This document shows, one piece after another, positions 5,221-24,375 of a stretch of DNA of 27,232 bases. This stretch comes from a virus. The notes under the pieces are model-generated. The model was not told the origin of the DNA. It was given only the letters and a program-made list of their open reading frames with translations, and did not search any database. Both the position numbers and the translations under genes were made by a program. The stretch covers positions 1 through 27,232 of IMG/VR virus record IMGVR_UViG_3300021090_000092; one strand, given 5' to 3'. Each line of letters starts with the position of its first letter. The stretch's first letter is position 1.

Positions 5221-5857
5221 TCGCCTTTTCAAATGTCCAACCACAAACATCAATTCGAGAACACAACGTATCGAAGCTGATTCCGACCAGCTTTGCCCAA
5301 TCAGTAAGGATCAGCGTTTTTCCGTCATGTGTATAGTACCGATTACTTTTCTGGTTTCGAGCCTGAACGTCCTTCGTCGCCCAGCGACAGTTGGCGGGAT
5401 AGCCGTTCTGTTTGCATTCATCGCACTTGCCACAAGTGTAGCCTCCGCTCGATTCAATGCGATCGATGGAGTGCTCGGTCGTCGGGGCGTCTCCCATGTC
5501 GACGAGGAAAGCGTTACTGGAAGTTCGCCACCGCTCACAAACAAATACACCGACAGCGCCGTAACTCGGAAAGCTGATCGTTTTGGCGTTGTAGCAGCGA
5601 GAGAGCATCGTCTGCCAAATTCCGTACTCGCGCTTTTGAGACCATCCGTTTGTACATTTGCAGGGCTTGCCGACGAATCCTTTCAGACTGTGGGCATAGA
5701 CGGGCCGCTCCAAACCACAGACGACGCAGCGGCACACCCAAAAACGTCTCGACTTGGTGTTTGTCTGCTGCATGTACGTCGACAGCAGCAGCAACGTACC
5801 AACGTGATCGCCGACTTGAAGATTCGCGGCGCAGAAGATAGCTTGAAGCTCAGCCAT
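5147..5857 (-). CDS. HNH-type phage endonuclease-like protein with zinc-finger-like N-terminus
   Basis: This is the only leftward gene. The ATG (complement of 5855-5857) is preceded by GAGGAGG on the minus strand. The 236-residue protein has an N-terminal Cys cluster (C42, C44, C47, C66, C68), then the phage mobile-nuclease core: YGIWQTMLSRCYN (79-90), YGAVGVFVCERWR (99-111), EHSIDRI (128-134) and NCRWATKDVQARNQ (156-169). A helix-turn-helix-like DWAKLVGISFDTL lies near the C-terminus. A short Cys-rich insert (CGKCDEC) sits before NCRWA. Such genes are commonly free-standing homing or HNH-like endonucleases. The segment is visibly more AT-rich than its surroundings, and its 3' end overlaps the peptidase gene by 74 bases, both consistent with insertion. 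Confidence 0.75.
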   Translation of the reverse strand: MAELQAIFCAANLQVGDHVGTLLLLSTYMQQTNTKSRRFWVCRCVVCGLERPVYAHSLKGFVGKPCKCTNGWSQKREYGIWQTMLSRCYNAKTISFPSYGAVGVFVCERWRTSSNAFLVDMGDAPTTEHSIDRIESSGGYTCGKCDECKQNGYPANCRWATKDVQARNQKSNRYYTHDGKTLILTDWAKLVGISFDTLCSRIDVCGWTFEKAITSPLGKTGRRRSAKQKPSSTKPE

Positions 5858-10700: not shown

Positions 10701-11129
10701 ATGGCTACGGATGACGAACAGGTCGAACCACCGCGCGAGCCGGAGATTTTCTCCGACCCTCGGCATCGTCGCGCCGACGCGCGGATGTTCGCAAGCGCGG
10801 TCGAGAAGGGGTGGCTCAAAGACCGGTTCCCCACGCGAGCCACGAAGGGAGAGATCGAGCGTCAGTCTGCTGGGCGCGAGGCCGGTCGCACGGTGATCGA
10901 GCTGGCGATCATCGCAACCACCGAGTTGCTGGTGAGCGCCGATGAGCGATGTAAGGCAACGGGGGCCCGCGTGGCAGTCGCGATGGAACGATTGAACCAA
11001 GTCGATCAGTTGCACGCGCTCAAGAGTGGCAGTGACCCCTCGGTGCCGCAACCGACGACTCGGACGCCAGACCAAATAGTATTGCTGATGGACGGCACGA
11101 TTCCACTACCCGAAAACAAAGCGAGTTAG
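10701..11129 (+). CDS. Hypothetical protein upstream of terminase, 142 aa
   Basis: The ATG at 10701 follows AAGGTCACTAGG, a modest binding site. The protein is helical, with a region (about 30-105: FASAVEKGWLKDRFP through VAVAMERLNQVDQLHALK) that resembles a type of small protein I associate with the position before terminase in planctomycete prophages. It could be a terminase small subunit or DNA-binding accessory. A second candidate for that role is at 11394. The family recollection is from memory and needs a search. Confidence 0.5.
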   Translation: MATDDEQVEPPREPEIFSDPRHRRADARMFASAVEKGWLKDRFPTRATKGEIERQSAGREAGRTVIELAIIATTELLVSADERCKATGARVAVAMERLNQVDQLHALKSGSDPSVPQPTTRTPDQIVLLMDGTIPLPENKAS

Positions 11130-18493: not shown

Positions 18494-18554
18494 CAGTTCG
18501 CGGAGTCGATCTCGCAACCAATTCACTTTCGCACGTTTTCACGGAGTCGGTTCC

Positions 18555-19595
18555 ATGCCAAATATCCTCGACGTTTTCAACGGCGACGCCTACCAGACCG
18601 TGAGTCTGACCAAGGGCATACTGAAACTGCCGTACAAGCCGGGGCGGCTCGGGGCGAGCGGTTTGTTCCAGGTCGAAGGGATCGATACCTGGGCGGTGGC
18701 GCTGGAATACAAAGCGGGTAAGATCTCGCTGATCCCAACGTCGACCCGCGGGAGCGGCGCGGCGAGCGCTCTTCCGTCGGAGCGTGGCAAGCTCTACACG
18801 TTCAGCGTGCCACACCTCCAACTTGGCGGGTCGGTGACGGCCGCCGAGTGTGGGCGCCGCGAGTTCGGCAGTGCCGATCGCATCGAGTCGATCAACAAGA
18901 TCATCCAGGACAAGGGCCTGCGGCTGCGCAACAATCACGAAGCCACGGCCGAGTATCATCGCATCGGCGCGATCCAGGGCAACATCAAGGACGCCGATGG
19001 CTCGACGAGCATCGTCAACCTGTTCACGACGTTCAGCATCAGCCAAGAGACGGTCGACTTCGCGCTCGACGACGACTTGACCGAGGTCAAGCTCAAGTGC
19101 GAAGCGGTTCGGCGGATCATCGAGGGCAAGCTCGGCGGCCGGACGCACTCTGGAATCGTGGCCCAAGTCGGCAACGGTTTCTGGGATTCGCTGATCATTC
19201 ACCCGCAGGTCAAGAAAGCCTACGAACGAATGCAGGAGGGTAAATTCCTCCGCGAGAACCAACGCACGGCCATCGACGTCGCCGAGGTTCTATTCTGCGG
19301 GATCCTATTTCAGAATTACCGCGGCAAGATCGGCACCGTCGACTTCATCGCCAACGCCGAGGCCAACTTCTACCCGACCGGCGTGCAGGATTTGTTCATT
19401 GAGCACTACGGGCCGGCGAACTTCGTCGAGACGATTGGCACGACCGGCAAGCCGTTCTATCTGAAGCAAGAGCGGATGAAGTTCGACATGGGCGTCGAGC
19501 TCTACAGCCAATCGAATCCGTGCGTAATTTGCGCGGAGCCGGAGTTGCTGGTGAAGGGCACGACGGCGCTGGCGGCCGAAGTCGCAGCAGCGTAG
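18555..19595 (+). CDS. Major capsid protein, lambda gpE-like
   Basis: The 346-residue protein has the lambda E-type pattern. An N-terminal MPNILDVFNGDAYQTVSLTK arm is followed by LPYKPGRLGASGLFQVEGIDTWAVALEYK, a mid-region ending in VKLKCEAVRRIIEGKL, then HSGIVAQVGNGFWDSLIIHPQVKKAYERMQEG, and C-terminal GTTGKPFYLKQERMKFDMGVELYSQSNPCVICAEPELL. It would self-assemble into the HK97-fold shell. The binding site is a CACGGAG just upstream. A strong terminator follows the gene, fitting heavy expression. Confidence 0.88.
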   Translation: MPNILDVFNGDAYQTVSLTKGILKLPYKPGRLGASGLFQVEGIDTWAVALEYKAGKISLIPTSTRGSGAASALPSERGKLYTFSVPHLQLGGSVTAAECGRREFGSADRIESINKIIQDKGLRLRNNHEATAEYHRIGAIQGNIKDADGSTSIVNLFTTFSISQETVDFALDDDLTEVKLKCEAVRRIIEGKLGGRTHSGIVAQVGNGFWDSLIIHPQVKKAYERMQEGKFLRENQRTAIDVAEVLFCGILFQNYRGKIGTVDFIANAEANFYPTGVQDLFIEHYGPANFVETIGTTGKPFYLKQERMKFDMGVELYSQSNPCVICAEPELLVKGTTALAAEVAAA

Positions 19596-21218: not shown

Positions 21219-22046
21219 ATGCCGATTTATAATGGAAAAAATGCGTACGTCGACGACGTTCCTTGCGTCCAAACCTGGTCGGCCTCGCTTGCGACGACTC
21301 ATCAGCGGCACAGCTCGTCGTGCATCGCAGGCGCCACCAACTCGCCACCTGGCATCAAGAACTGGTCGGGCCAAATCACCGGCCTTGGTGACTTCCCATC
21401 AATCGTGATCCCGTCGCTGTCGCCGCTCACGTTCCTGGGCGTCATCAACAACACCGGCGGCTCGCTCAAGAGTCTCAACGGCAGCGTGTTCATCGAATCG
21501 CTCACGATCGACATCAATAAAGCCACCTACGCGCCGATCAGTTGGACGGCGACGTTCGGGGCGCATGGCGATCTCGTCGAAGCGGCCACCGGCGCTGCCG
21601 ACTCGGTCGTCTCGGAAGCGCCCAACGGCAAAGACCTGGCGATCACGATCGTGGCGACGCCGATCACGCAGGCGATCCAGACGGCGCAGCTCGTCTTCCG
21701 CCGGCCGTCGACGACCTACGTCGACGCGGGGCTCACGTACCGGACGCCCGGCAACCTCGAAGCCGACATCAACTTTGCGGTGCTGGAGTCGGCGCTCGAA
21801 GTCGCTGCCTACGCGCCCAATGCGCTGTCGCTGGTGAAGATTTTCACGACGGCGACCAAGTATTGGGAGTTCTCGAAGATCCGCTTCGGCGGTAAATCGA
21901 ACTTCGTCGTCGACCGCACGAGTAACAACGTGCTCGGCTACACCGTCAACGGCATGTGGAACGCGATCGAGGGCACGACGGAGGGGTGGATCGCGTTCTT
22001 CAACGGTTCGACCTACGAGACGGCGATTTACGGAACGGCACCCTAG
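21219..22046 (+). CDS. Probable major tail (tube) protein, 275 aa
   Basis: The protein has alternating beta-strand-like segments throughout (SWTATFGAHGDLVEAATG, LAITIVATPITQAIQTAQLVFRR, ADINFAVLESALEV, WIAFFNGSTYETAIYG). The position, directly before a frameshift tail assembly chaperone and tape measure, is that of the major tail protein in siphophages. It is 275 residues long, within the range for such proteins with an added domain. The assignment is mainly by position. Confidence 0.6.
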   Translation: MPIYNGKNAYVDDVPCVQTWSASLATTHQRHSSSCIAGATNSPPGIKNWSGQITGLGDFPSIVIPSLSPLTFLGVINNTGGSLKSLNGSVFIESLTIDINKATYAPISWTATFGAHGDLVEAATGAADSVVSEAPNGKDLAITIVATPITQAIQTAQLVFRRPSTTYVDAGLTYRTPGNLEADINFAVLESALEVAAYAPNALSLVKIFTTATKYWEFSKIRFGGKSNFVVDRTSNNVLGYTVNGMWNAIEGTTEGWIAFFNGSTYETAIYGTAP

Positions 22047-22059
22047 TTAGCGAGCCAGC

Positions 22060-22563
22060 ATGTCCCTGCCAGTCACGATTGAAGGTCAGAAGCTGTTCGT
22101 CACGCTCCCGTCGGCGACGGACCTCAACAATTTCCAGCAGCTTTTGCAGACGGAATATCGGCGGCGGATGTTCGCCGCGATGCCGACCGGCCTGCCAGAC
22201 GACGAGTTCAAGCGCTGGATTCGCGTCATCAATGAAGAAGCCGCGGAGATCAACCCGTTCAAGAATCTACGCGCACTGGCGAATTCTGCCGACGGCGCAG
22301 CACTGTTTTACCACGCGCTCTTGCGCCACGAGAATCCGAACGTGACTCTCGACTTTGTCGCGGAGCTGGTGTCTCGCGGCGTCGAAGGCAAGCCGGCGGC
22401 GATGGAAGGCTTGCGCGAGATTCGGACAGCGTTCGAGTCGCTGCTGGAAGCAAAAAAAAACGACCAGCAGCCCAAACCGCCAGTCCCGGTGGAAACTCAG
22501 CCGACTCCGGGGCCTGCGACTTCCCCGCCGTCTACCGAAAGCTCACCGAGCGGTACGGGCTAA
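22060..22563 (+). CDS. Tail assembly chaperone, short (zero-frame) product
   Basis: The 167-residue protein has a helical core (LNNFQQLLQTEYRRRMFAAM, AEINPFKNLRALANSADGAALFYHALLRHEN). After the slippery run at 22452-22461 it continues as a low-complexity Pro/Thr/Ser tail (KPPVPVETQPTPGPATSPPS). A short product with an uninformative tail, followed by a -1 frame with a real domain, is the lambda G / GT design. It lies directly before the tape measure, as expected of the tail chaperone. Confidence 0.7.
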   Translation: MSLPVTIEGQKLFVTLPSATDLNNFQQLLQTEYRRRMFAAMPTGLPDDEFKRWIRVINEEAAEINPFKNLRALANSADGAALFYHALLRHENPNVTLDFVAELVSRGVEGKPAAMEGLREIRTAFESLLEAKKNDQQPKPPVPVETQPTPGPATSPPSTESSPSGTG

Positions 22564-22688
22564 CGCTCGGCGACATCGACCACATGCCGATCGACGTGCT
22601 CGAAGAGTACATCACCGGTAGCCAGCCCGACACGATTACTTTTGCCAACGAAGCACAGTTGATGCGATGGCTTCAGACGTCCAAGTAA
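22060..22688 (+). CDS. Tail assembly chaperone, -1 frameshift fusion product
   Basis: The zero frame is read from 22060 through the AAC codon at 22459-22461. A -1 slip on AAAAAAC then continues from 22461 to a stop at 22686-22688, giving about 209 residues. The -1 extension is 75 residues and has a coherent domain: DFPAVYRKLTERYGLTLGDIDHMPIDVLEEYITG and FANEAQLMRWLQTSK. This resembles the C-terminal T-type part of tail chaperones that recruits the tape measure. It overlaps the tape measure start by 22 bases. The frameshift is inferred from sequence. Confidence 0.6.
22452..22461 (+). promoter_or_regulatory. Candidate -1 ribosomal frameshift slippery site (A9C)
   Basis: Nine A followed by C lie in the codons GCA AAA AAA AAC of the chaperone gene. 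Two overlapping heptamers (A AAA AAA and A AAA AAC) allow both tRNAs to re-pair after a -1 slip. A hairpin (CAG-CCCGG with CCGGG-CTG, 22481-22516) lies downstream, at about 20 bases a larger spacing than usual. Confidence 0.7.
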
Positions 22689-23080
22689 AATTCGGCGGCG
22701 ACTTTAACGAGCTCAAGCAATCGCTTGCAGCGATGGAGGGTCACGTCCAGAGTTGGGGCTCGAACATCCGCACGATCGCGGTTGGTGCGTTCGGCGTTTT
22801 TGCAGGCCGTGAGTTGATCCAGGCGGGCGTCGGGTTCGTCAATGCGGCCCGGGAGGCGGCGGAGGTCGACGCCAAGCTCGCGGCCGTCCTGGAGGCCACG
22901 GGACACGCCGCTGGCTTCACGGCCGATGAACTGGAGAAGATGGCGAAGGGCTTGCAGTCGATCACCAAGTTCGACGACGACGTGATCAAAGGCGCCCAGA
23001 CGATCCTCGCCACGTTCACAAACATTCGCACAGACGAGTTCCAAAGGCCGACATGGCGACCATCATGGGTGGCGACGTGA
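22667..23080 (+). CDS. Tape measure protein, N-terminal part (frameshifted)
   Basis: The 137-residue frame starts inside the end of the chaperone -1 frame. It has the N-terminal tape-measure pattern (SDVQVKFGGDFNELKQSLAAMEGHV, then EAAEVDAKLAAVLEATGHAAGF and DDDVIKGAQTILATFTNIRTDEFQ). The last 11 residues (RPTWRPSWVAT) break this pattern: the continuation lies in the -1 frame, where KADMATIMGGDVKSAAEQLGKALDAP follows from 23044. The two frames together give about 569 residues. The break is at TTCCAAAGG (23039-23047), where one extra A would restore the reading frame. Confidence 0.75.
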   Translation: MASDVQVKFGGDFNELKQSLAAMEGHVQSWGSNIRTIAVGAFGVFAGRELIQAGVGFVNAAREAAEVDAKLAAVLEATGHAAGFTADELEKMAKGLQSITKFDDDVIKGAQTILATFTNIRTDEFQRPTWRPSWVAT

Positions 23081-24375
23081 AAAGTGCCGCCGAGCAGCTC
23101 GGCAAGGCTCTCGATGCGCCGATTCAGGGCATCATGCTATTGGGTCGCTCTGGTGTCAAGTTCACCGAACAGCAGCAGGAAATGATCGAGGCGATGGTCC
23201 GATCGGGCGACGTTATCGGTGCCCAAAACGCGATCATGGACAAGCTGGCGTCGAAGGTCGGTGGCGCAGCCGAAGCGGCCGGCAGTGCGGCTGGTGGTGG
23301 ATTCGCCGAATTTGATCACGTCGTCAATGACATCAAGGAGGCGATCGGCGGCGGTCTCTTGGTCGTGATCGACGAGCTGCTGCCGAAGCTGGTCGACGGC
23401 GCCGATTTGGTGCTCGAATGGGCTGAGAGTTTCGAGGCAATGGGCCCGGCGATCGCGGACTCTGTTTCGCTATGGATGGGTCGCCTCGAATCTGCCGGTG
23501 AGTTGGCAGGCGCCGTGTTCGGATTCATGTTTGACATCGGGGCGGAGGCATTCACGGGCCTGCAAAAATTGGCCGTTGGCATGTTCACGGCCTTCGACGT
23601 CGGCTGGAAAAATCTGCCGGGGATCGCTTCGCTCGCCTGGGATTCCGTTCACCTTGCCGCCGTGACAGTGTTCGAGGATTTGACTTTCTTTTTCACCGAC
23701 ACGGCGCCGACGCTGTTCAACTTCTTTGCGGACAACTGGCGTGAAATCTTCACGGACATTGCTAACTTCACGGGCACCGTGCTCGAAAACATGTTCGACA
23801 ATGTTGAGACGTTTTTCAAGGCCGTGTGGGAGTGGCTCAACGGCAACGAGGCTTCGTTCGAGTTCAAAGCATTGACGGAAGGCTTTGAGGCATCGCTCAA
23901 GGAACTACCGAAGATCGCCGAACGCGAACTCACTGGGTTGGAAAAAACTTTGCAGGGAAAAATCGGCTTGCAGGCGGCCGGCATCCTCGGAAATTTCCAG
24001 AGCGAGCTCGAAAAGAATCTGGCAGCCGCTGGACTGAGCGACGTGAATCGGCCATCTGGGCGCGCGCCAAAAGCGGAAGGCGCAGCCGCTACGAAGCGCG
24101 AGCGCGAGAACTTCGCACCGAAAGAGAGCGGCGGCGACAAAGACAAGGAATTCAAGTCCGAGTTCGAAGACCTCGGCAGTCTCTTCAAACGCATCCAGTC
24201 GTCGGCCGCGTCGGGCGGCTCGCCCGAGTTGAAGGCCGCCGAGAAAACGGCAGAGGCAACTGAAAAGACGGCAGCAGCGGCGGAAGAAACCAAGAACACG
24301 AACAAGGAGATCGCAGCAGAAATGCGAGCCTTCAATGCGCGGGTGAATTTCGGTGGGAACCCGGCTTTGGGGTAA
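23053..24375 (+). CDS. Tape measure protein, main part (frameshifted)
   Basis: This open frame has 440 residues from ATG 23053, but coding-like sequence in this frame begins at about 23044. The opening MATIMGGDVKSAAEQLGKALDAPIQGIMLLGRSGVKFTEQQQEMIEAM is a conserved tape-measure motif. A Gly/Ala hinge, hydrophobic helices (about 120-210) and a coiled-coil-like Ala/Glu/Lys end (about 385-425) follow. Tape measures set tail length and help in DNA ejection; the combined length of about 569 residues implies a short to medium tail. If the frameshift is real and not bypassed, a working tail may need translation restart at 23053. Confidence 0.75.
   Translation: MATIMGGDVKSAAEQLGKALDAPIQGIMLLGRSGVKFTEQQQEMIEAMVRSGDVIGAQNAIMDKLASKVGGAAEAAGSAAGGGFAEFDHVVNDIKEAIGGGLLVVIDELLPKLVDGADLVLEWAESFEAMGPAIADSVSLWMGRLESAGELAGAVFGFMFDIGAEAFTGLQKLAVGMFTAFDVGWKNLPGIASLAWDSVHLAAVTVFEDLTFFFTDTAPTLFNFFADNWREIFTDIANFTGTVLENMFDNVETFFKAVWEWLNGNEASFEFKALTEGFEASLKELPKIAERELTGLEKTLQGKIGLQAAGILGNFQSELEKNLAAAGLSDVNRPSGRAPKAEGAAATKRERENFAPKESGGDKDKEFKSEFEDLGSLFKRIQSSAASGGSPELKAAEKTAEATEKTAAAAEETKNTNKEIAAEMRAFNARVNFGGNPALG

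Follow-up and report, generated by a model that had tools for sequence, protein, structure and literature searches.

In phage lambda, the tape measure protein is bound by the tail assembly chaperones G and G-T, whereby T recruits the tail tube subunits (PMC5009743). According to Xu, Hendrix and Duda (2004), as cited in that same article (PMC5009743), the tail chaperone frameshift is conserved among double-stranded DNA (dsDNA) phages, being -1 and, in some of them, -2 or +1. Frameshifted tail chaperones are likewise described in the SEA-PHAGES set (PMC10885494), and the distance between the slip site and the stop codon has been quoted as averaging 26 and 36 nucleotides (nt) in known sets (PMC10885494). 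Here, we analyzed a locus of comparable layout in IMG/VR virus record IMGVR_UViG_3300021090_000092, a GC-rich stretch of 27,232 bases from an uncultivated bacterial virus, the whole of which is referred to below as the window. The locus consists of an open reading frame (ORF) for a G-like protein that ends beyond a slippery run of nine adenines and a cytosine (A9C), and of a -1 frame that continues past this run into a T-like domain. Judging from its sequence and from its relatives, it is very probably a lambda G/GT-like pair made by programmed -1 ribosomal frameshifting.

RESULTS

The G ORF is located between a tail-tube-like gene (21219-22046), so named from its position, and the start of the tape measure gene at 22667. 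Its 0 frame reads GCA AAA AAA AAC GAC over positions 22450-22464 and thereby contains two in-phase slippery heptamers, A AAA AAA (22452-22458) and A AAA AAC (22455-22461), in what is the longest homopolymer of the window. An earlier note on this stretch had described the A9C run with its two overlapping heptamers, a zero frame ending in a low-complexity tail, and a -1 frame open for 75 codons that ends just past the tape measure start. All three descriptions were borne out, with both heptamers in phase and with coordinates and counts that were correct. The 0-frame tail extends over 34 codons rich in proline, threonine, and serine and terminates with a TAA at 22561-22563, and the -1 frame stops at another TAA (22686-22688) that overlaps the tape measure gene (ATG at 22667), so that the G-T fusion is predicted to be about 209 residues long.

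An open frame alone means little at this locus, and the decisive evidence is comparative. Indeed, among the 75-codon -1 stretches within long ORFs of the window, 36% are open, and the openness of the extension does not exceed chance. Relatives were obtained through the capsid protein and tail tube alignment, and six distinct uncultivated ones were used (L002, L004, L006, L007, L013, and L015). Near-copies of L015 (L014 and L016 to L018) were counted once with it, whereas L003, which ends before the tail genes, L005 and L009, which carry different genes after the capsid, and L008, a near-copy of L007 that ends before G, were left out. The order tail tube, G, T, and tape measure is found in all six relatives, and T lies in the -1 frame of G in five of them (L002, L004, L006, L007, and L015). 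Each of these five also carries a slippery heptamer in phase near the end of G: C CCA AAA in L002 and L006 and A AAA AAC in L004 and L007, in all four cases 4 to 6 codons before the G stop, and A AAA AAG in L015, 23 codons before it. The runs themselves are short, with A6 in L007 and L015 and CCCA4 in L002 and L006. In L007, the -1 frame opens one codon ahead of the heptamer, so that the overlap consists of almost only the slip site. The earlier note had pointed to relatives devoid of an open -1 frame, or homologues devoid of the A run, as evidence that would count against a frameshift. In the relatives, a homologous T domain is encoded in an alternative frame that stays open, and the in-phase heptamer is kept in five of the six, although the run is not always made of A.

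The recurrence of heptamers at the end of G exceeds chance. Across long ORFs from the window and from its relatives, the frequency of slippery heptamers in phase is 0.00065 per codon, or about 1 in 1,500. Approximately 0.026 would thus be expected in the last 40 codons of a protein, and one or more were present there in five of the six relatives as well as in the window.

Profiles of the relatives' G and T proteins were then compared with the stretches from all six frames of the window. The profile of the six relatives' T sequences, from which the window was excluded, matched the -1 stretch 22236-22685 (E = 2.3e-6; next match, 0.98), and the -1 extension was its sole significant match across the six frames. 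The profile of the six relatives' G sequences matched 22051-22560 (E = 1.5e-5; next match, 3). Seven T sequences could be aligned, with a tyrosine, a second tyrosine, an isoleucine, a phenylalanine, and a tryptophan invariant among them, and the aligned 0-frame tails vary in both length and sequence. Past the 0-frame stop at 22563, the G+C content by codon position in the -1 phase is 0.54/0.37/0.78, similar to that of the body of G (0.63/0.39/0.75); within the overlap (22462-22560), the same measure favors neither frame. The T frame of the window contains no ATG, GTG, or TTG from 22236 until 22584, a position already inside the T domain, as homology to T begins around 22518. An internal canonical start therefore cannot make the whole of the window T, since the first helix would be lost. 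L015 behaves likewise, its first start in the T frame being found at 5433, inside the T domain. The features of the locus are collected in Table 1.

Table 1. Coordinates of the predicted features of the G/T locus and of the two genes that flank it.
Feature	Coordinates	Strand	Basis
Probable tail tube (major tail) protein gene, upstream	21219..22046	+	Tube function suggested by position
G-like tail assembly chaperone, 0 frame, 167 residues plus stop	22060..22563	+	ORF; profile of relatives' G; predicted fold
Slippery run A9C	22452..22461	+	Heptamers at the equivalent position in five relatives
-1 frame extension, 75 codons plus TAA	22461..22688	+	Open frame; G+C by codon position
Low-complexity 0-frame tail downstream of the slip site, dual-coding with the first part of T and probably not conserved	22464..22563	+	Relatives' aligned tails
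Conserved T-like domain	22518..22685	+	Alignment of seven sequences; profile of relatives' T
Start of the tape measure gene, overlapping the T stop	22667..23080	+	PHROGs tail length tape measure, E = 1e-8

Structure predictions were consulted for both domains. The G model comprises two strands plus helices, with a mean predicted local distance difference test (pLDDT) score of 79. Residues 1 to 135 of this model could be aligned with the HK97 tail assembly chaperone (2ob9) with a Z score of 4.7 and a root mean square deviation of 3.6 over 83 residues; the identity is 13% and the Z score is tied with those of unrelated helical proteins, making the alignment no more than suggestive. A Foldseek search of the G model against the PDB returned no significant match, and the G profile retrieved no meaningful match from PDB sequences. 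In BFVD, the best matches of G were unnamed phage proteins, and named chaperones appeared only at E values of 0.07 or worse. The T model, predicted as four short helices, reached a pLDDT of only about 55 to 75 (mean, 61) and was too uncertain for a structure search.

Broader searches for kin gave the following results. Single-protein scans of viral contigs with G, the -1 extension, or the tail tube protein returned no relatives, nor did scans of genome contigs with G-T and the capsid. No match was obtained by tblastn of G, the tail tube protein (from the window and from L006), or the portal against phages, and searches of approximately 50,000 phage records revealed no relative of the window G or tail tube protein.

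The surroundings of the locus were also examined. The order capsid, neck gene, gene of about 180 codons, tail tube, G, T, and tape measure is common to the window, L002, L004, L006, and L007. The protein encoded by the gene upstream of G has a homologue in the corresponding position of L002 (25% identity, E = 3e-15) and in five further relatives. The major capsid protein of the window (18528-19595) belongs to the Phage_cap_E family (PF03864, E = 1e-72) and shares 38% identity with the capsid of Wolbachia phage WO, whereas no counterpart of the tail tube or portal gene was found in the phage collection. The tape measure gene is split in two (22667-23080 and 23053-24375) by a frame change near 23040-23052, where approximately 16 nt have apparently been lost compared to L002 and L014, either by assembly error or by real damage.

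Two observations concern predicted RNA structure near the slip sites. In L007, a strong predicted structure (10848-10930; z = -3.6) lies just past A AAA AAC and is a candidate stimulator there. In the window, a perfect stem of 8 base pairs can form between 22440-22447 (GCTGCTGG) and 22464-22471 (CCAGCAGC), placing the A9 run in a 16-nt loop. About 1.4% of window positions have such an enclosing 8-base-pair stem and none of the relatives has one; we treat it as a curiosity.

DISCUSSION

The case for a ribosomal frameshift at this locus is built on three observations, namely, a slippery run that is in phase, G and T domains with homologues in the relatives, and a -1 arrangement conserved among them. 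According to this model, most ribosomes would remain in the 0 frame and produce G. A minority would slip back by one base, either on A AAA AAC or on A AAA AAA, which begins three bases before it, and read on in the -1 frame to produce G-T. By analogy with lambda, G would coat the tape measure protein and T would recruit tail tube subunits. That slippage is carried out by ribosomes rather than by RNA polymerase, and with low efficiency, is what we infer.

Several observations speak against a ribosomal frameshift. Neither G nor T matched a chaperone family of Pfam or PHROG. The distance between the heptamer and the 0-frame stop, 99 nt in the window, is unusually long. The RNA downstream of the slip site is no more stable than shuffled sequence (z = 0.18 for 22462-22530 and -0.14 for 22462-22560). 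A downstream hairpin was thus rejected as stimulator in the window, and the suggestion in the earlier note that a distant hairpin might reflect a different stimulator found no support, since a hairpin no stronger than shuffles provides no evidence of an unusual one. Among the relatives, L013 (5187-5811) stands apart, since its T occupies the +1/-2 frame with respect to G and its junction carries CCCAAAAAC in another phase. This could reflect a changed shift direction, as is known among tail chaperones (PMC5009743), or a base error in the L013 contig. Lastly, an ATGA or a GTGA overlaps the G stop in L002, L006, and L007 and offers T a start in its own frame, and L004 contains an ATG in that frame 33 nt past the G stop; in these four relatives, separate synthesis of T is therefore possible in addition.

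The main rival to ribosomal slippage is slippage of RNA polymerase, which would add one A to some transcripts of the A9 run, so that ordinary translation yields the G-T fusion. Both kinds of slippage lead to the same frame. Taking a run of nine or more A/T as the criterion for transcriptional slippage, the A9 run, unmatched in length by any other homopolymer of the window, attains the length at which it becomes effective in many bacteria (PMC1088944), and this is why it ranks as the main rival. However, in the relatives this frame is entered from A6 or CCCA4, runs that are too short for polymerase slippage and argue that the ancestral mechanism was ribosomal, and known G/GT cases are ribosomal as well (PMC5009743). 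We thus regard polymerase slippage as unlikely, although both processes could act together in the window. Similarly doubtful is an evolutionary variant in which a ribosomal slip site inherited from an ancestor has lengthened to A9 and RNA polymerase slippage now accounts for some or all of the fusion. If polymerase slippage did operate in the window, it would relax the need for a nearby 0-frame stop, which could explain the long 0-frame tail, and the 8-base-pair stem enclosing the run might modulate it. A switch from ribosome to polymerase, if it had taken place, would then represent a new route to a conserved product ratio.

Another explanation is that the true run contains ten A and that G-T is one uninterrupted protein, the split arising from an assembly or sequencing artefact or from a mutation. 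Homopolymers are prone to errors, and this record also has a tape measure gene broken near 23040. Yet G and T occupy different frames in the six relatives too, with junction heptamers in five, so that all of them would need the same error, which makes an artefact improbable. It is also very improbable that T is only ever a separate protein, made by reinitiation or from its own start after G, with no fusion produced. The start codons at or just after the G stop in L002, L004, L006, and L007 are what such a protein would use, whereas the first canonical start in the T frame of the window and of L015 falls inside the T domain, and the in-phase heptamers would be left unexplained. That the -1 frame is merely open by chance and untranslated, as more than a third of comparable stretches are, is hardly credible given that it encodes a domain homologous to the relatives' T and displays a coding-like G+C pattern past the 0-frame stop.

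Programmed -1 ribosomal frameshifting would extend the G/GT frameshift, which has long been recognized in lambda and other long-tailed phages, to a group of uncultivated tailed phages. Within this group, the arrangement is retained although the slip heptamer changes among A AAA AAC, A AAA AAG, and C CCA AAA. In practice, gene callers will annotate the 167-residue product alone and miss the T domain.

Compared to lambda, the likeness is one of arrangement. The lambda heptamer is G GGA AAG, whereas that of the window is A AAA AAC, with the 0-frame stop 99 nt downstream, farther than the 26- and 36-nt averages of known sets (PMC10885494). No similarity to lambda was found in the family libraries searched; the match to the lambda G/GT arrangement described in the earlier note stands as such, with no named chaperone family recovered by sequence. 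The shared features are the location between the major tail protein and tape measure genes, a C-terminal T encoded in the -1 frame, and an in-phase XXXYYYZ heptamer toward the end of G. The locus would in this respect resemble the tail chaperones of other dsDNA phages, in which the frameshift is kept despite low sequence similarity.
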